Source: Janthinobacterium saanense (GTDB taxonomy: Bacteria; Pseudomonadota; Gammaproteobacteria; Burkholderiales; Burkholderiaceae_D). From it: a stretch of DNA of 64,000 nt. The stretch covers positions 1-64,000 of the forward strand of contig NZ_JACHCI010000002.1 in the NCBI RefSeq assembly GCF_014200675.1, written 5' to 3'. The position numbers were made by a program, and so were the translations under genes. Positions within the stretch are counted from its first letter, which is position 1. Each line of letters opens with the position of its first letter. Positions 1 to 12,748 of the stretch are shown here, in pieces. The notes beneath the pieces are model-generated. The model made no database searches and had not been told where the DNA came from. It was given only the letters and a program-made list of their open reading frames with translations.

Positions 1-95
1 TCGCGTCAAATCGACCGAAAATACGCTTGATCGACTTACTGTTCGACCATTTGGCGCGTCAATTTCGCTAGGAAAGCGAATTGATCAGCGCTTCC
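1..95. mobile_element. End of an IS5-like insertion element (rest lies outside the window)
   Basis: Reading leftwards from base 95 the sequence begins GGAAGCGCTGATCAATTC, and it is bordered outside by CTAG (96-99). The same 18-base terminus, with three differences, closes the small element at 4276-4374, also bordered by CTAG. A terminus of this type with a CTAG-like target resembles IS5-group elements; the family assignment is from memory of such ends, not a search. Only the terminal 95 bases are in the window and no transposase coding is visible. It is inserted into the IS30-type transposase remnant that follows. Confidence 0.45.
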
Positions 96-99
96 CTAG

Positions 100-207
100 G
101 CGAACGGCCAAGACGTTGAGCAATCGTTCGGATACTGCCTGGTCATCGCGCATGGTCATCACGACAGCACGCTCTTGGATTGTTAGGTGACAATAGATTC
201 TGGGCAT
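100..207 (-). pseudogene. IS30-family transposase, N-terminal remnant, frameshifted and cut by another element
   Basis: On the minus strand an ATG at 207 opens a protein beginning MPRIYCHLTIQERAVVMTMR, the style of IS30-type transposase N-termini. After about 23 codons the frame must shift by one base to continue as SIRTIAQRLGRSP, the expected helix-turn-helix of that family. The reading then stops at base 99, where the IS5-like element is inserted. Just upstream, 226-250 resembles an IS30-type terminal repeat (TAGGTGTTGCACTTGGTTTT). Clearly non-functional. The family call rests on pattern recognition of the short N-terminus. Confidence 0.55.
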
Positions 208-252
208 GGCAACACATTACAGGAGTAGGTGTTGCACTTGGTTTTAGAGGCT

Positions 253-501
253 GCCTATAGTTAAGGCCGTGTCTGAATTGCAGAATTGATCCTTGCTCCC
301 TTTTTTCGAATTCAACTTCCTTAGCTTCTATGGGCCGTAAACAGCTTCATATGGTTGCATCCGGCATGTCAATTCGTCGCTCGTTCCTTTGGAGAAATCT
401 ATTGCCGAAGAATAATTAGCTATACTTTCGGAAATTTTCTGTGCAAAATACACAAATTGGCATGCACTCAAGCCTCGCGGCCGTCCTAGTAGGGGAGCGT
501 T
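253..501. other. Non-coding leader of the island operon
   Basis: No convincing gene is seen between the IS30 remnant and the first island gene. Base composition becomes AT-rich from about 290. A possible -10 hexamer TATACT is at 421-426, but no good -35 is present at normal spacing. The sequence AGGGGAG at 491-497 serves as ribosome binding site for the TTG start at 502. Confidence 0.4.
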
Positions 502-2991
502 TTGAACGAAATCGAAAAAAAAAATATCAAGGAAGTGATTTGCCCGCTTATTTTGTCGGGCGAAGCAGCACTGCTTCTTGGTGAGCATTTCAGTCGCGGT
601 AGTTCGTCTTTAAGCGGGACGATACCAAATGCAGATGAGCTAAAAAATAGACTACTTAATGATTGTGGTAAAACACCTGGTTCGCGCACTACATTAAAAG
701 ATGCATATAAATATGCTGAGCGCAATATACCAAATTTTTCGGTGTATTTTAGTAAGATATTTTCAGCTACAAAGACATCGCCTTGGCAGGATAAAATATT
801 TGAGTTTGTTTGGAATAGAATATATACAACAAACATTGATAATTCACTGAATTTATCTTATTCAAAAGTTAAGAAAAATGGAAAAAATTCAGCAGACTTT
901 GTTTTTTTAAATTATTCAGATAATAGTATAATTGGAAGCTCAATTGGTAGCATTCCAGTTATTTCTATAAATGGATCAATAGAATTTATTGAAAATGGTT
1001 TCCTATTGGACAATTCGGAATATGGATCGGTTGATTCGAGAAAAATTTCTGATTGGCATAACGAATTGCCTGCGAGAATGTTGATAGGCGGGCTCATAGT
1101 AATCGGTGAGCTAGATGAAAATGATATCGATGCCTGTTCGACTGCATTGGTATTTGACTCTAAGGACGTCGAGCATCAACCAAAAAACTGGGTGATTCTG
1201 AATAATCCGGATGAAATAAAATGTTCTAATTACAAGGCGGCCGGCTTTGTTGTTATTGATTCAACGCCAGAAGAATTCTTTAATTTTGTTTATTTAAATA
1301 TAGCGCCAGTAGGAATATACGAGGCGATGTCTAAAGATGTGCCAGCAGAAAAAAAATCAAGCTTTAATATAAAGGCAATGGTTTGGTTTAGGAGTGCTTT
1401 CAATACTATATTAAATGAAATTGAAAAAGCAAAACTTCAAGCGGGAATTCTGCGCCAATTTATTATGGGAGCATATCCTGATTGGTTTTATATACAAAAT
1501 AATGTTCATGCCGTGACTCCAAAAATAGAATCTCTGACTCGAAAAGTTGCTTATCTTATGAGTACGAGTCAAGATAAACTTGGAGTATTGCATGTCACGG
1601 GCTCAAGTGGCTCTGGAAAAACAACCGGGATACGTGCATCGCTGCACAGTTTGGTCAATCTATATCCTTATATTTATGAATTCGACTCCGAAAATGGAAT
1701 CGATATTGAATATTTATATTCAATACTGGATAATTTTTCTGAAAAATCAATAATTGTATTCTATTCAGCTGCCGCTTACTATTATACTGTTAACGCACTG
1801 GCAATAAAACTCAAGGATAAGCCAAGACCGTTTGTTCTCTTTATATTGGAGGAGAGAACTAATTCGTTTTTGAAAAATAGGCACCATTTGGTGGACTGTG
1901 CTACGTTTGCTACCGAATTTGAGTTTGGTCGCATGTCTATAGATGATGCTAAAGCTGTTGCAAAGAAGCTAGATTCTTTGAGTATTATTTTCGAGGGATT
2001 CTCTAATAATACAATCGATCAACGAGCGAAAATAATTCTGGATTCGGAGCGTGGATATAACGGCGATCTTTTATCCACACTGTTCTCGTTGACAACGCAC
2101 GAAAATTTTGAAGACCGAATTTATAAAGAGTATCATTCTGTAGCTGAAGGTAGTCCTAGAGATATCTTGGAGGTAACGGCGATTATGAGCTCTTTAGGGT
2201 TCTCAATTCCAATTAATTATATGTCTGGCTTTTTGGAAATTGAACCCCGAGAAATCATGGAAAAGATGAGCCATGATTTAATGGGAATTGCAGTTATGAG
2301 TAAAGCACGTATGCAAGTCATGTGCCGACATCGTGTTATTGCAGATTTTTATTTTAAAAATTGCATAGCTGGTAAAGGGAATATAAATCTAGTAGTTGGA
2401 ATACTCGAATTCCTCTCTCGACAATTTACAATCGCCGATATACGTTATCATCCCTTGGCGTACGAGATATATCGGAAAATAATTTCATTTAATTTTCTAT
2501 ATGATGACTATTTTCCAAAGTCAAGTCGCAGGAAAGATACGGAGCGAACTTATCACGAAGCGCAAAGATTTTTTGGCACCGACGGAGTTTTTTGGTTGCA
2601 ATTCGGAAGGTTTTATCGAAAAATCGGCGAATTTGATAATGCGATTGACTGCTTCCGTACAGGGTTAATGTTCTATGACTCATTCCAGACTAGACATTCC
2701 CTTGGAACCGCTCTGTTGGAAAAATTTGTTGCTACAAACTGCTTAGATGAAGATCTTTATGCTGAAGGCGTCGCGATATTAGATGAGGAAATCATAAGGC
2801 GAGGTCCTCGCGATCCGTATCCAACTACAACGATGTGTAAGCTTTTGCTTGATATAATGCAAGTTAGGCCATCTAACACTGACGTGAATGAAAGATTTCT
2901 CTCTTGTATGAATAATGGGCTTAAGAATTTTAAAGATGATATAACGTTTCAGCGAATAATAAAACGCTATTATTCTATGAGCGAGAGATAA
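502..2991 (+). CDS. SIR2-like / STAND NTPase / helical-repeat protein (Avs5-like candidate defence sensor-effector)
   Basis: 829 residues, TTG start preceded by a good ribosome site. Residues ~15-210 look like a divergent SIR2 fold: LLGEHFSRG at 25-33 sits where GAGxS is usual, YTTNIDNSL at 108-116 keeps the TTN-D motif, and GELDEND at 202-208 matches the closing strand. The usual catalytic HG is INGS, with Asn157 replacing His. Residues ~340-620 form a STAND-type P-loop ATPase: Walker A GSSGSGKT (367-374), then LFILEER (446-452) and RHRVIADFYF (609-618). Residues ~640-829 look like TPR-type helices. This order (SIR2-STAND-repeats) is that of Avs5-type and related anti-phage proteins, which deplete NAD after sensing phage protein; that role is inferred. 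The gene is far more AT-rich than the flanks and leads a three-gene operon. If the His loss is real, the SIR2 unit may be weak or inactive. Confidence 0.75.
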   Translation: MNEIEKKNIKEVICPLILSGEAALLLGEHFSRGSSSLSGTIPNADELKNRLLNDCGKTPGSRTTLKDAYKYAERNIPNFSVYFSKIFSATKTSPWQDKIFEFVWNRIYTTNIDNSLNLSYSKVKKNGKNSADFVFLNYSDNSIIGSSIGSIPVISINGSIEFIENGFLLDNSEYGSVDSRKISDWHNELPARMLIGGLIVIGELDENDIDACSTALVFDSKDVEHQPKNWVILNNPDEIKCSNYKAAGFVVIDSTPEEFFNFVYLNIAPVGIYEAMSKDVPAEKKSSFNIKAMVWFRSAFNTILNEIEKAKLQAGILRQFIMGAYPDWFYIQNNVHAVTPKIESLTRKVAYLMSTSQDKLGVLHVTGSSGSGKTTGIRASLHSLVNLYPYIYEFDSENGIDIEYLYSILDNFSEKSIIVFYSAAAYYYTVNALAIKLKDKPRPFVLFILEERTNSFLKNRHHLVDCATFATEFEFGRMSIDDAKAVAKKLDSLSIIFEGFSNNTIDQRAKIILDSERGYNGDLLSTLFSLTTHENFEDRIYKEYHSVAEGSPRDILEVTAIMSSLGFSIPINYMSGFLEIEPREIMEKMSHDLMGIAVMSKARMQVMCRHRVIADFYFKNCIAGKGNINLVVGILEFLSRQFTIADIRYHPLAYEIYRKIISFNFLYDDYFPKSSRRKDTERTYHEAQRFFGTDGVFWLQFGRFYRKIGEFDNAIDCFRTGLMFYDSFQTRHSLGTALLEKFVATNCLDEDLYAEGVAILDEEIIRRGPRDPYPTTTMCKLLLDIMQVRPSNTDVNERFLSCMNNGLKNFKDDITFQRIIKRYYSMSER

Positions 2992-3017
2992 ATATTAATA
3001 TGGGCGCGTGAGAGAAA

Positions 3018-3389
3018 ATGCTAAATCCAAATTGGCCAATGATTATAGCTGGGCTTTTGATTTTATTAAAACAGGCCTTTAAGTTACATTTGCAAAACAA
3101 GCCAAATTCAGTAGATTACCTAAAGACTATAGCATCCATTCCCGTAGATGTATCATTTTTGGTTGTGAGTTTCTTCATTAAAGCGGCTACCGTGCCAAAT
3201 CATGATCAAAATATGTTAATTGCGGGAATAGTCTTGTATTTGATAGTCAGTGTTTTTACCACCGTATTGTGGCGTATAAGCGATAGCGCCGTTAGTGCAA
3301 GCTTGGGAAAGAACTTTCTATGGGCTTTTCCACTTAACGCAGCTCTTTCTATAGTAACTTTTTATATAGCTTTTACTGTTATTGGTTAA
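3018..3389 (+). CDS. Small four-helix membrane protein of the candidate defence operon
   Basis: 123 residues, not recognised. Four hydrophobic stretches are visible, about 7-22, 40-59, 66-86 and 101-122, separated by short polar loops, so it is predicted to lie in the inner membrane. It begins 26 bases after the SIR2-STAND gene and its stop codon is directly followed by the ATG of the next gene, so the three are almost certainly co-transcribed. Same AT-rich composition as its neighbours. No catalytic motif is seen. By analogy with other defence operons it could be a membrane effector or partner for the membrane-anchored third gene; this is a guess. Confidence 0.7.
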   Translation: MLNPNWPMIIAGLLILLKQAFKLHLQNKPNSVDYLKTIASIPVDVSFLVVSFFIKAATVPNHDQNMLIAGIVLYLIVSVFTTVLWRISDSAVSASLGKNFLWAFPLNAALSIVTFYIAFTVIG

Positions 3390-4100
3390 ATGATGGATAA
3401 ACAAACTTTTATTATAGCTGGTGTTATTTTCATCGCGACATATCTATTGGCGACAGCGATATATTTTTTATTTAAAAGGTATATTACTGCCAAGGAAGCC
3501 ACTCTCCTCCAGGAACGCGTCAGATTGGATGATTTTAGAGCTCATCTTGAACGTCAGTTGATGGAGTTGAACTTGAAATTTTCTGTGTCGGAAGGCAAGT
3601 GGAAGGAGTTAAATCATCTTGTTTTAGCTGGTCAGACTCCGAAAGTTTTACCAAACATGCACGGAGTCACCTCGACATTTCTTTCGCAGCATGGAATCAA
3701 TCGTTCTGAAATAAAAGTCGATAAAAATTTACTCTTTGTCATTACGCCTTTCCATGAAGATCTGAGCGATGAATTTGCCGCAGTGAAAGAGGCTGGTGAA
3801 TCGCTAGACTTTAATGTTAATCGTGGAGATGAACGTGTCGAGGCAGACTCAATATTTTTGCAAATTTTGAATTTAATTTTATCTTCAAATATTATTGTGG
3901 CCAATATTACTGGTAGAAATCCAAATGTTTTTTACGAACTTGGGTTGGCTCACGCATTTGACAAAAAAGTTATATTGATATCACATCACTCGTCGCCAAT
4001 CCCATTCGATGTACAGGCGAAGAGAATACTATTTTACAAAGATAATGAAGAGCTGAAGGCTAAGTTGACGCCTATGTTAAAAGAGTATTCTAAAAATTAA
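3390..4100 (+). CDS. Membrane-anchored coiled-coil protein with nucleoside 2-deoxyribosyltransferase/TIR-like domain
   Basis: 236 residues. Residues 7-28 form one transmembrane helix, 33-75 a charged, probably coiled-coil linker, and 113-236 a Rossmann-like domain starting LLFVITPFHEDL. The signature NPNVFYELGLAHAFDKK (177-193) is the hallmark of nucleoside 2-deoxyribosyltransferase-like and related TIR-like domains, where the Glu of the YELG motif (Glu183 here) is the catalytic residue. Proteins of this fold cleave N-glycosidic bonds of nucleosides or NAD-like molecules. It directly abuts the preceding membrane-protein gene. Its anchoring suggests a membrane-tethered nucleotide-degrading effector or signal reader working with the SIR2-STAND protein; this is inference. 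A weak terminator follows. Confidence 0.7.
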   Translation: MMDKQTFIIAGVIFIATYLLATAIYFLFKRYITAKEATLLQERVRLDDFRAHLERQLMELNLKFSVSEGKWKELNHLVLAGQTPKVLPNMHGVTSTFLSQHGINRSEIKVDKNLLFVITPFHEDLSDEFAAVKEAGESLDFNVNRGDERVEADSIFLQILNLILSSNIIVANITGRNPNVFYELGLAHAFDKKVILISHHSSPIPFDVQAKRILFYKDNEELKAKLTPMLKEYSKN

Positions 4101-4153
4101 TTGGGGAGCGAGGGTCAGTTCTGCCATTCCTACACAGCCTCAGCTATGCATGG

Positions 4154-4182
4154 CCGCGATCACATCGATAGGCGGTTTTTTT
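4154..4182 (+). terminator. Weak rho-independent terminator after the island operon
   Basis: CCGC (4154-4157) can pair with GCGG (4172-4175) and is followed by seven T residues (4176-4182). The stem is only four pairs with a long loop, so this is a tentative call. Confidence 0.35.
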
Positions 4183-4239
4183 AGGTGTAGTTTCGGGTGT
4201 AATTTATCCAACTTGTAAATTATTCGCCTATTTGGGAGC

Positions 4240-4262
4240 AAAAAAGCCCGCGTGAGCGGGCT
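4240..4262 (-). terminator. Rho-independent terminator for minus-strand transcription
   Basis: AGCCCGC (4245-4251) and GCGGGCT (4256-4262) form a perfect stem with loop GTGA. On the minus strand the stem is followed by a run of T (4240-4245 read in reverse). It would end the DUF3761 gene at 4419-4877, from which it is now separated by the inverted-repeat element at 4276-4374. Confidence 0.75.
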
Positions 4263-4275
4263 GACGAGGGACTAG

Positions 4276-4374
4276 GGAGTCACTGATTAATTCGACTTTT
4301 CGTCCAAACTTCGTGTGTAAGTCTTTGATTTCTAAAGGGACGGATTTTCATAAACTGAATTAATCAGTACTTCC
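4276..4374. mobile_element. 99-bp MITE-like non-autonomous element with CTAG flanks
   Basis: The left end GGAGTCACTGATTAATTC and the right end read inward, GGAAGTACTGATTAATTC, are 18-base inverted repeats agreeing at 15 positions. Copies of CTAG lie outside both ends (4272-4275 and 4375-4378), as expected for a target duplication. The interior has no reading frame of note. The termini match the IS end at base 95, so this is probably a non-autonomous derivative mobilised by the same IS family. It lies between the DUF3761 gene and its apparent terminator. Confidence 0.7.
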
Positions 4375-4418
4375 CTAGCAGGCAGGTCGCAGGCTGGCAA
4401 TCATCCATCAATGCAGGA

Positions 4419-4877
4419 TTATTTTCCGCAAGCCTTTCCATGCTCACCATGGAAGCCTTTGGCTTTAGCATCAGCCTCTGCCATGTATTCGCCTTTTTTT
4501 GTCTTCCCATAGTACTTATCACCTTCGCAATGATAGACCTTGCTTGATGTGTTGACCCAAACCTTGCCATCGCCGCCACCCGGGGCCACCTGAGCTGACG
4601 CTACCTTACTAGCGGTGCTTGCCGCAGGAGCTGCTCCAGCTGCCATCTTCCCAGTGCTCATCATGCCGCCGTGTCCCCGGCAACCATGGGTAGTTTGGTC
4701 GGCTGGCGCAGAGCCATCTTTACACTTGGGCGTCGGAGTAGCATCGGGTGCCGCCGGATTTCCCATCGCCGAGGGTGTAGGCTTAGGTGCGGCCGAAGGC
4801 GCAGACGCTTGGCTCTGAGCAAACGCCTGCGATGCGAAGGCTGCACTTACTGCGAGGATTGCAATGAAGTTTTTCAT
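4419..4877 (-). CDS. Secreted DUF3761-type protein
   Basis: 152 residues with a signal peptide (MKNFIAILAVSAAFASQAFA), then a low-complexity Ala/Pro/Ser stretch (~20-48). A Cys/Gly motif, CKDGSAPADQTTHGCRGHGG (52-71), matches the style of DUF3761. The C-terminal part (VWVNTSSKVYHCEGDKYYG and following) resembles the small Cys/Tyr module that often follows it. Function is not known; periplasmic or secreted. The start is supported by GGAGACC upstream. Composition is that of the chromosome, so it marks the right border of the AT-rich island. Confidence 0.75.
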   Translation of the reverse strand: MKNFIAILAVSAAFASQAFAQSQASAPSAAPKPTPSAMGNPAAPDATPTPKCKDGSAPADQTTHGCRGHGGMMSTGKMAAGAAPAASTASKVASAQVAPGGGDGKVWVNTSSKVYHCEGDKYYGKTKKGEYMAEADAKAKGFHGEHGKACGK

Positions 4878-5098
4878 TTAAGGTCTCCAGTGTGCACGGA
4901 ATGACGTGCTTGCACCGGTTAACGCAGAGCCGCACGTACCGTTGACTCCACCGAAAAAATACATGGCCGATTGCGCAAATACGAGCATCAAGCGCCAGGG
5001 GGCGTTCGCCGAGCAATTATTCGCGGGGCTCTTGCTGTGAGCAGGAACTGGCAGCACGCGCACCTATCGCTGTGCCCGGAATTGCTTGATCACTGCAC

Positions 5099-5830
5099 TT
5101 AGACGGAAGCTGGTGTGTGCGACCGTGCTAGACGCTCCATGTGCGCCTTCGCCACTCGTACCGCTTCGTCGGTTCGCCCCCACAGGCCCTTTATTTGTTC
5201 GACGATTTCCGGCCGCGCGCTACGCGGATGTCCCGAGTTCATTGTCGGCTGAGGATCGTACTCCAGAACGAGTTGTGTAAACTCTGCCGCATCCCGCCCT
5301 TTGATCTCTGCGATGACCTGCAGTGCAAAATCAATTCCAGCCGTTACGCCACCGCCGGTGATGCGGTTCCTGTCGACGCAGACCCGTTCATAGCTCGGCT
5401 CGATACCCAAGGCTATGAGTGGTTCGTAGAACGGCCAGTAGGTAGCGGCGCGGTAGCCCTCCAGCAGCCCCGCCATTGCGAGAAGCACAGAGCCTGTGCA
5501 TGCGGAGGTGATATAGGTGGCAGTCTTTCCGGCCCGAGCAATAAAGTCCAGAAATTCCTGGTCTTTCATGATCTCCGGGGTTCCCGCGCCACCAGCGACA
5601 AACAGCACGTCCAAATTGTCCGGAACGTCATGCATTGTAATCGTCGGGTTCAGGGTGACCCCCATATCCGTCGGAACAGGGTCCATGGTTTTCCAGATGA
5701 TGTGTGTTTTGGCATGAAGGCCAAATGCAGTCTGTGGCCCTGCCAAGTCTTGCAGCGTAAAGCCTGGAAAGATCACCATCCCTATCTGCAGTTGGCGGTC
5801 TTCAATTTTCTTACTCGGTTTATCCGACAT
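5099..5830 (-). CDS. DJ-1/PfpI family protein, isonitrile hydratase-like
   Basis: 243 residues from the ATG at 5830, chosen because AAAGGAG lies just before it; a longer upstream frame has no such site. The DJ-1/PfpI fold is evident: IGMVIFPGFTLQDLAGP near the N-terminus, FVAGGAG, and the nucleophile-elbow ITSACTGSVLLAMAGLLEG with the predicted catalytic Cys. This arrangement is typical of isonitrile hydratase (InhA)-like proteins, which hydrate isonitriles to N-substituted formamides; the exact substrate cannot be read from sequence. It is transcribed divergently from an AraC regulator that carries the same fold, which probably controls it. Confidence 0.8.
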   Translation of the reverse strand: MSDKPSKKIEDRQLQIGMVIFPGFTLQDLAGPQTAFGLHAKTHIIWKTMDPVPTDMGVTLNPTITMHDVPDNLDVLFVAGGAGTPEIMKDQEFLDFIARAGKTATYITSACTGSVLLAMAGLLEGYRAATYWPFYEPLIALGIEPSYERVCVDRNRITGGGVTAGIDFALQVIAEIKGRDAAEFTQLVLEYDPQPTMNSGHPRSARPEIVEQIKGLWGRTDEAVRVAKAHMERLARSHTPASV

Positions 5831-5966
5831 CGTTTTTCTCCTTTTGTTGGGCTTGACTACAGCATAGCCCTGCCAGACAATATGCGTGAGTGGCAGGAAT
5901 GACAAAAGGCGATTGGTTTCTGCCAGCGTTTGCATTTTACAAATTGATGAAAAGGAGTCCATTTCC

Positions 5967-6908
5967 ATGCATAGGATCGCGGTTCTGGTGTTGGATGATG
6001 TGGTACCGCTGGACTTTGGTATCGCCTATCAGGTTTTTGCCTTGGCCCGTCAGATTGACGGAAGCAAAGCCTACGATGTAGAGGTGTGCGGACCCAGGCG
6101 GACAATTCGGACGGCCAGCTTCGATATGCAGGTGCGACACGGACTTGATCGCCTTGTGCAAGCCGACACCATTGTCATACCAGGAAGTGAAGACCCTTTC
6201 AGAGAGGTTCCAAGGGCTGTAAGCTTGGCTCTTCAGAGCGCCTATGATCGCGGGACAAGATTGGCGTCTATTTGCACGGGAGTCTTTACCCTTGCCGCAA
6301 GCGGTCTGCTTGATGGAAGGCGCGCTGCTACGCATTGGCGTGTTGCAGAGGACCTTGCCAGGCTTTACCCCCAGATAACAGTCGAACCGAATGTGCTGTT
6401 CGTCGATGAAGGTAGCATCGTGACTTCGGCCGGCGCGTCGGCAGGTCTGGACATGTGCCTGCATCTCGTGCAACGCGATTACGGCCAGGCTGTTGCTGCG
6501 AACACTGCCCGCCTGGCGGTCGCGCCTATGCGCCGGGACGGCGGTCAGGCGCAATTCATTCGCCAGAAGCTGCCCAGCTCGCCAACCAGCTTGACGTCAT
6601 TGATCGAGTGGCTGCGAGACCATTTGAACGCCGTGCACACGGTCGATAGTCTTGCGATACACGCCAATATGAGCCCCCGCACCTTTGCCCGACGATTTCA
6701 AGAACAGACCGGTACCACCCCGTTGCAATGGCTGCTCAATGCGCGCATCGATCGAGCGCGTGAATTACTTGAGGAGAGCGAGCTATCGATAGATCAGACA
6801 GCATTTCTTTCGGGGTTCGGTTCAGCTGTGACCTTCCGGTCACGTTTCCGGCGGGTTGTCGGTCTTACCCCGACAGAATACCGTCGTCGATTCAGCGCTG
6901 CAAACTAG
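5967..6908 (+). CDS. AraC-family regulator with N-terminal DJ-1/PfpI domain (FtrA/GlxA-like)
   Basis: 313 residues. The ATG at 5967 is preceded by AAAAGGAG. Residues 1-~190 are a DJ-1/GATase1-like sensor domain containing SICTGVFTLAASGLLDG, similar to the partner enzyme's elbow. The C-terminal ~100 residues hold two helix-turn-helix units (VDSLAIHANMSPRTFARRF and IDQTAFLSGFGSAVTFRSRF), ending with GLTPTEYRRRF as in AraC/XylS proteins. It is divergent from the isonitrile-hydratase-like gene with 136 bp between the start codons, which should hold the shared operator. Probably a ligand-responsive activator of that neighbour. Confidence 0.85.
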   Translation: MHRIAVLVLDDVVPLDFGIAYQVFALARQIDGSKAYDVEVCGPRRTIRTASFDMQVRHGLDRLVQADTIVIPGSEDPFREVPRAVSLALQSAYDRGTRLASICTGVFTLAASGLLDGRRAATHWRVAEDLARLYPQITVEPNVLFVDEGSIVTSAGASAGLDMCLHLVQRDYGQAVAANTARLAVAPMRRDGGQAQFIRQKLPSSPTSLTSLIEWLRDHLNAVHTVDSLAIHANMSPRTFARRFQEQTGTTPLQWLLNARIDRARELLEESELSIDQTAFLSGFGSAVTFRSRFRRVVGLTPTEYRRRFSAAN

Positions 6909-7087
6909 ATCTGATCATTACGCCGGGCCGGAGCTAAAGCGGAGCCAGGGTCGGTGCTGCGGCAGCGGCGATTTATCTCGACTGCATGATTGAATATACA
7001 GAGCAAAGAATCAAGGAGCTGCAGCCCACCGCCTGGCAGGCTGCTTAGGAAACACCCGCTGCCGATGGGCTTTCTGTCCGGGCTAGC

Positions 7088-7624
7088 CTAGAAAAACACT
7101 GTTGCGGTAATCGTCGATTTGTAGGTGTCCGGCGATGGCGTATTTTGTGGCGGGACGTTGCCGTAGACGGTGATCGCTTGTGCGGAGCCACTACCGACGC
7201 CGCTGACGGTGTCGGTGCCCTGGGTGTTGCCCCAGTTGGTGGCGCCCGAGGTCTGGAACAGGTTGAATTGCACCACGCCCGTATTGCCGCTGGTCGTGCC
7301 GCTCATGTAGCGGGTGGCGACCGAGGAGCCGGTGCCGGTGCCGGCGCTCAAGCCCACGTTATAGGGGGTGGTGTTGGTGCAGGTGACGCTGACCGTGGTG
7401 TTGACGTTGAGGGGCGTGGAAAGCAAGCCCTGGGCTTCACCAAAGTCCAGCGGGGCGGCTGAAATAATGCAGTTGGCGACGATTTTCAAGGTGACGTCGA
7501 ATGGTGCGGTATTGGTGCCGGTGCTGTACACGGCGGCGCCGACGGGGATGGTGGCGGTGGCGCCCAGCAGGGACAGCGCGGCGATGGTGGACAAGCGGGA
7601 GAGTTTTATGCGCAACGGTAACAT
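7088..7624 (-). CDS. Spore coat U-domain (Csu-type) pilin-like protein
   Basis: 178 residues from the ATG at 7624, which has GGAGG upstream. A signal peptide precedes VGAAVYSTG. The mature part is rich in Thr/Gly/Ser and follows the spore-coat-U pattern: FDVTLKIVANCIISAAPLDFG near the start, a second Cys in VSVTCTNTTPYNVGLSAGTG, and a closing beta strand TYKSTITATVFF suitable for donor-strand exchange. Such proteins are usually subunits of chaperone-usher (archaic Csu-like) fimbriae or secreted surface proteins. No chaperone or usher gene is adjacent, so it stands alone and its assembly partner is unknown. Confidence 0.8.
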   Translation of the reverse strand: MLPLRIKLSRLSTIAALSLLGATATIPVGAAVYSTGTNTAPFDVTLKIVANCIISAAPLDFGEAQGLLSTPLNVNTTVSVTCTNTTPYNVGLSAGTGTGSSVATRYMSGTTSGNTGVVQFNLFQTSGATNWGNTQGTDTVSGVGSGSAQAITVYGNVPPQNTPSPDTYKSTITATVFF

Positions 7625-7938
7625 TATGGCCTCCGGATGATGGGGGATCATGAATCGACTTTTCCAGGTGCAGGGCGGCGATGGGATGTCGCAGCATTGC
7701 TGGCGCTGCCATGCGTCCTTCCACGTTAAAGTGTCATTTGAGCAACTCAAATTGCTTTGAGTCAATCTATGACTGGATTATTAGCGATTTGAAAAATTGC
7801 TGCTTTTGCTAGCGGTGAAAGCACTTTTGATGCGGGCGAAGAATGCAAAAAAAGACGCGTGCTCTGTGTGTCAGCTAACACAAGCGCTGTTTTGATGGGG
7901 GGGGGCTGTTGCTACGCGGTAATGCTGGCAGGGGAGGG

Positions 7939-7977
7939 CGCCATGGCCCGCTGGGAACAGCGGGCCATGGCGTTTTT
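7939..7977 (+). terminator. Long perfect hairpin with T-run (terminator-like)
   Basis: CGCCATGGCCCGCTG (7939-7953) pairs perfectly with 7958-7972 across a GGAA loop, followed by TTTTT (7973-7977) on the plus strand. There is no plus-strand gene before it. It lies between the two minus-strand genes scpU and icd and may still stop icd transcripts by structure alone. Confidence 0.6.
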
Positions 7978-7995
7978 GTTGCAGGAATTGTAGCA

Positions 7996-8019
7996 GATGC
8001 CGGCGTTGCCGCCGGCATC
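7996..8019 (-). terminator. Hairpin directly after icd
   Basis: GATGCCGGC (7996-8004) and GCCGGCATC (8011-8019) form a nine-pair stem with a six-base loop, 11 bases beyond the icd stop codon. There is no strong T-run, so it may be a transcript 3'-end stabiliser rather than a full terminator. Nothing else is seen in 7766-7938 except the upstream region of the spore-coat-U gene. Confidence 0.45.
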
Positions 8020-8030
8020 CGAGTTCATCC

Positions 8031-10262
<2,232 letters not shown>

Positions 10263-10499
10263 GTTCATTTCCTCGTATGCGGTGGTGCCCGGTAGTTCCC
10301 GGCGGTTAACTTGCTACCCTTACTTCCGTTTTGCTTCATTCCCAGGCACACCTGGCAGTGCCAGGTGTTGCCATTCCAAATACAACTATTATCTTGTTTG
10401 CATTGGACACTTGGTGTGCGGGCGCTGGCGCCTGCTTCAGCCAATCTCTATTTTAGACTGTCCGACCACTCTATGCCTAAATTATGAAATGTCAATCAT

Positions 10500-10517
10500 A
10501 TATAAGACATCTTATAT
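10500..10517. promoter_or_regulatory. Perfect 8-2-8 palindrome between icd and folE2
   Basis: ATATAAGA-CA-TCTTATAT is a perfect inverted repeat in the 368-bp divergent region between icd and folE2. Motifs of the ATAAGA/TCTTAT type are, from memory, common before TCA-cycle genes of beta-proteobacteria and are linked to GntR-type regulators; that link is not shown here. It is 113 bases before the folE2 start and 237 before the icd start. The rest of 10263-10630 shows no gene. Confidence 0.6.
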
Positions 10518-10630
10518 GAGTCTTAGGCGTCCTCAACATACGTCAAAATTCGCCATTAATGCAATTGACTTGCAAAAACGGCGACACTTCTGCATGATAT
10601 CGGGCCATCTTGCCATTGAGGAGTTTAGGT

Positions 10631-11557
10631 ATGAAACGCGATCAACTCAACACGCCGCTGCCCGACGTCGCTGCCGGCGGCTATGGCGGCAATCAACTGC
10701 CGCTGGAATGGGTCGGCATGCAAGGCATCGCCTTGCCGCTGCAGCTGCTTGAAGAAAGCGCGACCGGAAGCACGGTGCAGCAGGTGCACGCCTGGGCCGA
10801 TGTGCAAGTCGACTTGCCCGACCCGCGCGTGAAGGGCATACATATGTCACGCCTGTATTTGCTGCTCGATGATTTTGTTGCGAAGCAAAGCCTGGGCGCG
10901 GCTGCGCTGCATGATCTGTTGCTGCGCATGGTGGGCAGCCACGCCGATTGCAGCGCCACGCAAGCGCGGCTGGTGCTGGCTTTTCCGCTGCTGCGGCGCC
11001 AGCCAGCCTTGCTGACGGCGGGGCTGGCAGGCTGGAAATCGTATCCCGTGCGCTTGCAGGCGCAATTGTCGCCACGAGGATTCAGCCTGGACGTCAGCGT
11101 GGAAACAGGCTATTCATCGACCTGCCCATGCTCGGCAGCATTGGCGCGGCAATTGCTGGCCGACGGTTTTGCGGCCAAGTTTGGCACGGGCAGCATCGAT
11201 GGCGCGCTAGCCCAGGCCTGGCTGCGCGAACATGGCAGCCTGGCCACGCCACACAGCCAGCGCAGCGTGGCCACTGTGACGGTGGCCCTGCACGGCGATG
11301 GACCGCTGGGCTTGTTCAGCCTGATCGATGCGGTGGAGGCGGCGCTGGCCACGCCGTTGCAAACGGCCGTCAAGCGGGCCGATGAGCAAGCTTTTGCTCG
11401 CTTGAACGGCGAGAACCTGATGTATGTGGAAGATGCGGCGCGGCGCGTGCAGGCAGCGCTGCTTCCCCGTTATGCGGGTGCGCAAGTACAAGTGCGGCAT
11501 ATGGAGAGCCTGCATCCACACGATGCCGTGGCGCAAGCCGGTGCACTGATCGCCTGA
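10631..11557 (+). CDS. folE2: GTP cyclohydrolase FolE2 (type IB)
   Basis: 308 residues from the ATG at 10631 (GAGGAG upstream at 10619-10624). FolE2 converts GTP to 7,8-dihydroneopterin triphosphate, the first step of folate synthesis, and is metal-flexible, unlike zinc-dependent FolE. Supporting segments are QADVQVDLP-like VQVDLPDPRVKGIHMSRLY near residue 50-75, the STCPCSAALARQL motif with the active-site Cys, and HSQRSVATVTV followed by the FARLNGENLMYVEDAARR region. It is divergent from icd. In many bacteria FolE2 is induced under zinc limitation; no Zur box was identified here. Confidence 0.93.
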   Translation: MKRDQLNTPLPDVAAGGYGGNQLPLEWVGMQGIALPLQLLEESATGSTVQQVHAWADVQVDLPDPRVKGIHMSRLYLLLDDFVAKQSLGAAALHDLLLRMVGSHADCSATQARLVLAFPLLRRQPALLTAGLAGWKSYPVRLQAQLSPRGFSLDVSVETGYSSTCPCSAALARQLLADGFAAKFGTGSIDGALAQAWLREHGSLATPHSQRSVATVTVALHGDGPLGLFSLIDAVEAALATPLQTAVKRADEQAFARLNGENLMYVEDAARRVQAALLPRYAGAQVQVRHMESLHPHDAVAQAGALIA

Positions 11558-11627
11558 CAGTCACCCGTTTGTCATATAAAGGGACTACACTTTATGCACT
11601 TGTGTATTGAATGATGGGAGGTGGATC

Positions 11628-11798
11628 ATGGCAGAGAAAACCGGGCGGGTGGATACCGATGACGCGCTGGAAGAGGAACTCGAGCGCGAACGGCGTGAAC
11701 ACATGCTGATCGACGAGGAAAAGCTGGGCATGGACGAACTGGAAGAAGAGCATTTGAAACGGGAGCGTGTGCCGGCGCCGGGCAAGCTGCCGCGCTGA
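11628..11798 (+). CDS. Small highly charged hypothetical protein
   Basis: 56 residues from the ATG at 11628, which has GGGAGG a few bases upstream; an ATG at 11607 in frame lacks such a site. The protein is dominated by Glu, Asp, Arg and Lys (for example DDALEEELERERREHMLIDE) and is probably one or two amphipathic helices. No family is recognised. Good ribosome site and codon use make it a likely real gene. Confidence 0.6.
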   Translation: MAEKTGRVDTDDALEEELERERREHMLIDEEKLGMDELEEEHLKRERVPAPGKLPR

Positions 11799-11911
11799 AG
11801 GCATGCGGCTTGTTTGCACCATAAAAGTGCAACATTGCTGGTGTTGTCTGCCGCAGGCCATTACAATTTTTAATCCTGCCATTTGAAGCTGCTCCAGCTC
11901 TCATACTGCCC

Positions 11912-12748
11912 ATGACATATATACGCTTGCTTCCCACCGTAGTGCGCACCGCAACAGGCCTTGCTGCGGCGATGCTGTTTGCCACCAATACCCAGGCAGC
12001 CACCCTGTGCACGGCCATGGTCGACGCCAAGTCCGGTTCGGTGCTGCTGCAAGAAGGCAATTGCGTGGAGCGGGTCACGCCTGCTTCCACCTTCAAGATC
12101 GCCATCAGCCTGATGGGCTACGACGCCGGCTTCCTCAAGGATGAGCATACGCCCAGCCTGCCATACCGTGTAGGCTATGTGGACTGGGGCGGTGCGCCCT
12201 GGCGCCAGGATACGGACCCGTCGCGCTGGATGCAATATTCCGTGGTCTGGTATTCGCAGCTGGTGGCGCAGGGGCTGGGCCAGGAAAAGTTCCAGAAATA
12301 CGCCAAGGCTTTTAGTTATGGCAATGCCGATGTGGCGGGCGACCCTGGCAAGAACAATGGCCTGGAGCGCTCCTGGATAGCATCGTCCTTGAAAATCTCG
12401 CCGCTGGAGCAACTGGGCTTCTTGCGTAAACTGGTTACCGGCCATTTGCCGGTGTCGAAGCAGGCGGTCGAAATGACCAGCAAGCTCACGCGCCTGGACG
12501 ACTTGCCTGGCGGCTGGCAATTACATGGCAAGACGGGCGCCGCTTTCCCGCGCAAGGCCGACGGCAGCTTCGATGAAGCGCACGGTTATGGCTGGTTCGT
12601 GGGCTGGGCCACCAAGGGCGAGCGCACCATCGTGTTTGCGCGCCTGGTGCAAGATGCGCAAAAGGGCCAGCAATCAGCCGGCCTGCGCACGCGCGAGGCC
12701 ATGCTGAAAGAGTTGCCTGCCATGCTGGAAAAGGCGCCGCTGCAGTAA
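11912..12748 (+). CDS. Class D (OXA-type) beta-lactamase
   Basis: 278 residues with a signal peptide ending near TNTQA. All class D motifs are visible: STFK at 59-62 (catalytic Ser59 and the Lys that is carbamylated in the family), SVV at 110-112, YGN at 136-138, and KTG at 207-209. A WFVGW segment follows. It is expected to hydrolyse penicillins and possibly oxacillin-like substrates in the periplasm; the spectrum cannot be read from sequence. Chromosomal, with composition like its neighbours and no integron or IS nearby, so intrinsic rather than acquired. It lies 81 bp before a class A penicillin-binding protein gene. Confidence 0.93.
   Translation: MTYIRLLPTVVRTATGLAAAMLFATNTQAATLCTAMVDAKSGSVLLQEGNCVERVTPASTFKIAISLMGYDAGFLKDEHTPSLPYRVGYVDWGGAPWRQDTDPSRWMQYSVVWYSQLVAQGLGQEKFQKYAKAFSYGNADVAGDPGKNNGLERSWIASSLKISPLEQLGFLRKLVTGHLPVSKQAVEMTSKLTRLDDLPGGWQLHGKTGAAFPRKADGSFDEAHGYGWFVGWATKGERTIVFARLVQDAQKGQQSAGLRTREAMLKELPAMLEKAPLQ

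Follow-up and report, generated by a model that had tools for sequence, protein, structure and literature searches.

Locus and gene content

We analysed a window of 64,000 nucleotides (positions 1-64,000, forward strand) of contig NZ_JACHCI010000002.1 from Janthinobacterium saanense (GCF_014200675.1). Close to its left end, three open reading frames (ORFs) are found on the + strand at 502-2991, 3018-3389 and 3390-4100, with products of 829, 123 and 236 amino acids (aa). Gene 1 and gene 2 are separated by 26 bases and gene 2 and gene 3 by 0 bases. Each gene has a GC content of 36-37%, compared with 59.7% for the whole window, and the lowest-GC 3.6-kb stretch of the window coincides with the trio. 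By Pfam matches and homologue alignment, gene 1 (TTG start) codes for a SIR2-like/nSTAND_NTPase5/TPR protein of Avs5-like architecture. Gene 2 codes for a four-helix membrane protein with a motif around P42-x-D44, as indicated by prediction and a family profile. Gene 3 is predicted, also with the aid of profiles, to consist of a transmembrane (TM) helix, a coiled coil and an NDT/TIR-like (DrHyd) domain. An initial annotation made from the sequence had placed the three genes correctly, with their spacing and AT-rich composition, and its domain calls are borne out by the nSTAND5 match and aligned SIR2 region in gene 1, the four helices of gene 2 and the NDT/TIR-like fold of gene 3. It had read the trio as one multi-component anti-phage unit. 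Our analysis shows instead that gene 2 and gene 3 form a conserved two-gene module. Gene 1 shares their AT-rich, repeat-bracketed insert but is most likely a separate defence gene, Avs5-like in type.

Gene 2 and gene 3 recur as a pair

Including the window, we found 40 pairs; the 39 further ones are in 30 genome records, 3 other genomes and 6 viral contigs. Most pair statistics given here rest on the first 38. In the species-genome scan for gene 3, the best 80 of 373 relatives were inspected. An anchored (TM/coiled-coil) N-terminus is present in 30 of them, and a small hydrophobic ORF of 120-199 aa lies directly upstream in all 30 (gap between the longest ORFs, -100 to +9). This upstream ORF has at least three predicted TM segments in 29 cases and two in the remaining one (L194). 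In the other 50 relatives the profile match begins at position 58 or later. None of these 50 loci, two of which (L223 and L246) have less than 250 bp of upstream sequence, carries an upstream ORF of at most 200 aa with at least three TM segments; four have some other ORF with at least two. The window shows the same arrangement as the anchored loci: a gene-2 family ORF stands directly upstream of an anchored gene 3 that has the invariant residues described below. By record title, the 30 pairs come from hosts in Pseudomonadota, Bacteroidota, Bacillota, Actinomycetota, Chloroflexota and Elusimicrobiota, apart from one record that bears only the title bacterium.

The pair is sparse among closer relatives of the host. 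Among 245 genomes of the family, one other gene-3 relative (1/244 other genomes) covers the anchor region. In this genome (G463) a gene-2 relative precedes gene 3 and overlaps it by 4 bases; a search there for gene 1 was empty, a result that calls for cautious reading. In the class sample (369 genomes), 33 other genomes have a gene-3 match and in none is the anchor region covered. The pair is present in six distinct viral contigs (L083-L086, L109 and L111). From the best 80 of 114 viral relatives of gene 3, five further contigs were inspected (L110, L112, L113, L115 and L120) and none of the five carries the pair. Gene 3 matched 19 plasmid records, none with 80% query coverage or more, and the 19 best places begin at residue 94 or later. 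When two gene-3 proteins were compared with 50,697 phage records (tblastn, 1e-5), no E. coli phage was matched. The NDT-like genes of phages SA13 (Staphylococcus), Javan527 (Streptococcus), BH1 (Lactobacillus) and phiEf11 (Enterococcus) have no same-strand gene of 110-200 aa within 120 bp upstream, as judged by annotation only, without membrane-helix prediction.

Pairwise identities of the gene-2 and gene-3 proteins are correlated (Spearman 0.44), and none of 999 permutations gave a value as high. Two gene-3 relatives, at 4989-5588 of L110 and 5653-6495 of L211, are possibly decayed or soluble variants.

The gene-2 membrane protein family

The AlphaFold2 model of gene 2 has four long helices, one of them kinked (predicted local distance difference test, pLDDT, 92). 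No PDB entry was matched significantly when this fold was searched (best E 0.56). Across the pairs the gene-2 proteins are 120-199 aa long and have a median pairwise identity of 18%. No Pfam, PHROG or PADLOC family takes in more than one of the 38 gene-2 proteins, seven Pfam families matching one member each, and SLATT families are unmatched by all 38 at E<=0.01. The window protein itself gave only sub-threshold matches (NCBIfam 16.4 bits where 170 is required; PADLOC E 0.056).

Because the proteins are short and hydrophobic, their homology was tested separately. Six pairs served to build a profile, which was then applied to 32 new pairs: it picked out the upstream ORF in 30 of them at E<=0.01, scored that of L212 at 0.025 and missed that of L208. 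The same profile matched no unrelated ORF among 5021 at E<=1. In leave-one-out profiles 37 of the 38 were found at 1e-3, L208 again being missed, and the window gene 2 was found at 1.3e-23. A reverse search of 398 genomes with the gene-2 profile gave matches in eight genomes, the window's included. Besides the window, the small-ORF matches are L284 and L290, each with gene 3 directly after it. The gene 3 of L284 and of L290 shares at most 47% and 34% identity, respectively, with gene 3 of other pairs, so they are not copies. Weak matches in L285, L286, L288 and L289 fall in ORFs of 301-551 aa without gene 3; the check covered all reverse-search matches except L287.

Gene 3 is an anchored NDT/TIR-like protein

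The gene-3 model (pLDDT 87) has a single long helix at the N-terminus (residues 4-66), followed by a Rossmann-like domain at about residues 111-235. Foldseek matched it to nucleoside 2'-deoxyribosyltransferases and DNPH1 (best E 1.2e-4), with a TM-score of 0.34-0.41 by query length and up to 0.75 by target length. The YELG in RNPNVFYELG aligns with that of Rcl/DNPH1 at a weak profile E of 0.2-0.5 (PDB profiles). Its Glu183 (codon at 3936-3938, + strand) is invariant in all 38 proteins and takes the position of the Rcl/DNPH1 Glu, which is catalytic in those enzymes. In window numbering, and counting the window protein among the 38, the invariant residues are R50, D147, N177-V180, Y182, E183, G185 and F206. 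With its Rossmann-like fold and YELG-type Glu, gene 3 belongs with the NDT/DrHyd proteins, and the sequence support for this assignment is weak: PF05014 is found in 34 of the 38 proteins at E<=0.01, and the window protein scores 23.1 bits, below the curated 28.8. In PADLOC, the model PDLC00733 (a CBASS effector described as TIR) is matched by all 38 proteins at E<=0.01. For the window protein the match spans residues 145-226 and takes in the C-terminal part only of the 388-position model. No cyclase gene is seen in the window trio. One of the 38 also matches SLATT_4 (2.8e-6).

Two other proteins were considered as counterparts of gene 3 and rejected. The type II-A retron effector of the same genome, compared as a single sequence by hhalign, showed no match to the gene-3 profile. 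PdpSau, a membrane-anchored prophage protein of S. aureus, has an OB-fold according to its paper.

Gene 1 and the question of a three-gene system

Residues 318-456 of gene 1 match nSTAND_NTPase5 with 38.5 bits (Pfam cut-off 34) and weak TPR-like similarity is seen at residues 682-737. Pfam did not recognize the SIR2 region, and the SIR2 assignment rests on an alignment with seven homologues, all carrying SIR2_2 and nSTAND5. These come from nine gene-1 relatives (about 20-27% identity), found in four genomes of the order sample (299 others searched) and five of the family sample (244 others); two of the nine matches are partial (G116 and G503) and the two domains are present in 7 of the 7 relatives scanned. 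No relative of gene 1 was found in plasmids or phages by tblastn, or in viral contigs by pattern scan. One SIR2-nSTAND5 relative (L021, 7499-10741) lies in an ORF that runs on into Tn5-type transposase domains, probably as a result of a transposon insertion.

In the eight-protein alignment gene 1 keeps TTNID, has GEHFS where GAGxS is expected, and carries Asn where HG has its histidine. In a region aligned with gaps, it apparently lacks the Walker B Asp that its relatives have. In Avs5, NG reaches almost the frequency of HG and is found in one functional example, and the Walker B motif is likewise unusual (PMC12931631). Hence, of these differences, only the lost GAGxS clearly argues for a weakened SIR2 domain. 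Gene 1 thus resembles Avs5 in its SIR2-STAND-repeat architecture, its TTNxD motif and its NG (PMC12931631). It differs from Avs5 in the replaced GAGxS, so that it lacks a SIR2 domain with both GAGxS and TTNxD, in the apparent absence of the Walker B Asp and in carrying nSTAND5: nSTAND_NTPase5 is the STAND model matched, and nSTAND3 gave no match at E<=1. In PADLOC, gene 1 has no Avs match.

The co-occurrence of the three genes elsewhere, on which the three-gene proposal had been staked, was not found: gene 1 does not accompany the other pairs. The flanks of the loci compared extend over a few kb only. Against the ORFs of 37 other pair loci the gene-1 profile gave one weak match (L194, E 0.0086), which falls in the P-loop part of an ORF of 139 aa; it gave none in the two further pairs (L284 and L290). 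Conversely, the gene-2 and gene-3 profiles found nothing at E<=1 in nine loci of gene-1 relatives, seven of them confirmed SIR2-nSTAND5. We concluded that the trio as one system is not supported. What stands of the earlier proposal is a plausible anti-phage role; what does not is the three genes as the unit, for the pair alone recurs.

Mobility and neighbours of the pair

In 36 of 38 loci the surrounding DNA is richer in GC than the pair. Lysinibacillus piscis (L192, 5493-6700) and Exiguobacterium undae (L196, 5511-6733), from two Bacillota genera, have in common a stretch of 82.6% identity (blastn 1e-20) that runs from 42 bp before the pair to 7 bp after it, and nothing more. In the viral contigs L083-L086 the pair lies among terminase-, portal-, head- or replication-like genes (by eye). 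In Vibrio hepatarius (L185) the pair (5638-6726) is located between two related 124-nt repeats (5448-5571 and 6732-6855); compared with another copy, located farther on in the contig, they show 62% and 68% identity. An integrase-like ORF (2554-3516) and two ribosomal-protein-like ORFs are found in the vicinity (by eye). The array of 119-124-nt repeats, the repeat ends and known features of Vibrio cholerae repeats suggest that the L185 repeats are attC sites; the pair is apparently one cassette of a chromosomal integron (array 5448-12638). An attC pattern scan gave no site in the Vibrio and Shewanella carassii loci L185, L209 and L210. In L209 and L210, repeats of a similar kind come after gene 3.

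The pair mostly stands alone. With a simple ORF caller, an upstream ORF within 60 bp is found in 1 of the 35 other pairs that have one called (L192, 42 bp), and the window with gene 1 so close is unusual. The 114 neighbours of 31 pairs matched 92 PADLOC models at 1e-5. Among the 25 models shown, two have two members and the rest one each; one neighbour is a TIR-NLR match (1.7e-98). Because one protein can match many models, these counts are no measure of enrichment. A SMEK-domain protein (L044, 10844-11923; Pfam E 3e-35) lies downstream of the G463 pair; on the upstream side an ORF resembles a tyrosine recombinase, as does one near another NDT-like gene (L049).

Comparison with known systems

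We found no named system like the pair in Pfam, PHROGs, PADLOC-DB 2.0 or the openly licensed literature without supplements; absence from that literature is no proof of novelty. The pair is not described in the available parts of PMC9503650, PMC9122126, PMC12894663, PMC7542560, PMC12931631, PMC7159879, PMC8195603, PMC10127798 and PMC13174449. It resembles the TIR + SLATT (2TM) pairs of Firmicute phages, in which a phage-borne small membrane gene adjoins a TIR-clade enzyme; in viruses, that paper reports in its available part only DrHyd of the ARC type (PMC9503650). In contrast to TIR-SLATT, the enzyme of the pair is of the NDT type (DrHyd) and has its own anchor, and its partner has four helices and no SLATT match. 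The TIR/TM system of P2-like phage AC1, named Rst_2TM_1TM_TIR in DefenseFinder, is also similar. It combines a TIR protein with membrane proteins, is prophage-borne and was shown to protect against phage (PMC9122126), but it has three genes, not two, and is likened here by description, not sequence. RexAB and Butters gp30/gp31 are prophage two-gene systems with a four-helix membrane protein (PMC12894663; PMC7542560). RexB (one sequence) differs from gene 2 in having no match to the gene-2 profile, and RexA is described as binding DNA and not as a glycosidase. Swarozyc (DUF4062 TIR-like NADase) likewise has an NDT-related TIR-like domain with a conserved Glu and acts by NAD+ depletion and abortive infection; unlike the pair, it has a portal-sensing C-terminal domain, and the available text describes no membrane anchor or partner (PMC13174449).

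Interpretation

With a probability of roughly 0.6, we favour the explanation that the pair encodes a membrane complex of two proteins, sufficient in itself and mobile as a unit, in which a membrane-tethered NAD/nucleotide glycohydrolase under four-helix control brings about abortive infection. Its computed basis is the gene order, the near-overlap, the correlated divergence, the predicted folds, the invariant active-site-type Glu and the phage-gene and attC-like contexts. The predicted anatomy of both proteins suggests a membrane complex with gene 2 controlling the tethered enzyme. The four-helix protein would associate in the membrane with the TM/coiled-coil stalk of gene 3 and hold the enzyme off; a phage protein, or a membrane disturbance during infection, would relieve this hold. 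The released NDT/TIR-like domain may then cleave N-glycosidic bonds of NAD+ or another nucleotide, and the infection would abort. Taken singly, an anti-phage role of the pair is quite probable, and gene 3 is probably a glycohydrolase. It is a more tentative proposal that the pair represents an undescribed, widespread two-gene immune system, mobile via prophages and integron cassettes, in which the four-helix protein senses a phage-induced membrane change and switches on the tethered TIR-clade glycohydrolase.

Other arrangements of the same parts were weighed. Gene 3 could make an ADP-ribose derivative or another nucleotide signal on infection that opens a four-helix pore formed by gene 2. The setting, a TIR-like enzyme beside a small membrane partner with several helices, fits such a role, which has been predicted for Firmicute-phage TIR genes beside a 2TM SLATT gene (PMC9503650), and so does the single SLATT_4 match among the gene-3 proteins. 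We regard this as rather unlikely: the SLATT match is absent from all 38 gene-2 proteins, and in 38 of 38 pairs an N-terminal membrane segment is predicted in gene 3 itself, which favours a fixed complex over a diffusible signal. Gene 2 might also be merely a membrane chaperone or antitoxin that restrains gene 3, an idea that overlaps with the favoured complex. It draws on Butters, in which the 4-pass gp31 interacts with gp30, the inhibitory component (PMC7542560), and the order gene 2-then-gene 3 suits an antitoxin placed first. The likeness to Butters is one of description, however, and RexB (single sequence) reaches an hhalign probability of only 0.3% against the gene-2 profile; we consider simple restraint unlikely.

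A SIR2-STAND sensor signalling to two membrane proteins would account for the shared strand, shared GC and 26-base gap of the trio. It is very unlikely in view of the co-occurrence results (one P-loop fragment match in 37 pair loci and the pair in none of nine gene-1-relative loci, all with few-kb flanks). Highly improbable, finally, is an ordinary nucleotide-salvage enzyme with a membrane anchor and no defence role. The best structural matches, NDT and DNPH1, are metabolic enzymes, but the pair is rare and patchy, as the 1/244 count of anchored gene 3 in the family sample shows, and it occurs in viral contigs, between attC-like repeats and in DNA of lower GC than its context.

Several points weigh against the membrane-complex explanation that we favour. 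The enzyme activity and the phage phenotype of the pair are inferred, and the NDT fold also serves nucleotide salvage, so that NAD+ as substrate is a guess. The permutation test of correlated divergence ignores host relatedness. L110 and L211 keep the coiled-coil part of gene 3 without the N-terminal TM segment and without gene 2. PADLOC matches among the neighbours are scattered. Gene 1 lies only 26 bases upstream of the pair, and its co-transcription with the pair is therefore likely here. In addition, the L214 pair is preceded at a distance of 840 bp by a large TIR-type ORF of 847 aa (1992-4535), probably the single TIR-NLR match; the window may thus not be the only locus with a STAND-type gene close to the pair.

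The trio anecdote is thus replaced by a defined two-gene module with an unnamed membrane family, found in several phyla and in viral contigs. If the pair is defensive, bacterial immunity would gain a TIR-like enzyme tethered to the membrane, with the topology of a receptor that has its TIR in the cytoplasm, and the question arises of what is sensed or restrained by the four-helix partner. Ready-made natural constructs are at hand in the cassette-like and phage copies of the pair.

Repeats around the insert

The trio is bracketed by an inverted pair of repetitive extragenic palindrome (REP)-like repeats with 44 nt aligned (257-300, + strand, and 4104-4147, - strand; repeat alignment). REP-like repeats are dispersed in the genome: the core 24-mer occurs 22 times at three mismatches or fewer and the reversed control 0 times. 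Outside the left repeat, at the contig edge, positions 1-98 are the end of a repeated element that resembles an insertion-sequence end (copies on contigs C16, C26 and C38), and positions 96-255 are a piece of a second repeated element, with a 94% copy at C31 and a 75% copy at C28. On the right side, inverted-repeat search found a 107-bp element (4272-4378) that resembles a miniature inverted-repeat transposable element, with 22-nt inverted ends that are 86% complementary. These elements and the REP-like bracket confirm the flanking mobile debris noted in the initial annotation. Positions 1-5000 of the window have no Rfam match at gathering score. A promoter scan stayed at chance level (13 found, 13.4 expected), and a terminator scan gave 5 where 2.9 were expected.

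A type II-A retron (NDT_II-A E 1e-76; RT_II-A E 1.9e-116) is located elsewhere in the same genome (G000, contig C3, 249659-254617; L277) between the same REP-like repeats, here in the same orientation. REP sites in this genome may therefore serve as landing places for defence cassettes. Near other REP-like copies, an ORF (L280, 1651-2511) resembles a REP-associated tyrosine transposase by eye. Beside a further copy, a 175-aa ORF (L276, 6410-6937) matches PADLOC TIR effector models (E 1e-34); it seems partial, as its best match takes in only the end of the PADLOC model.

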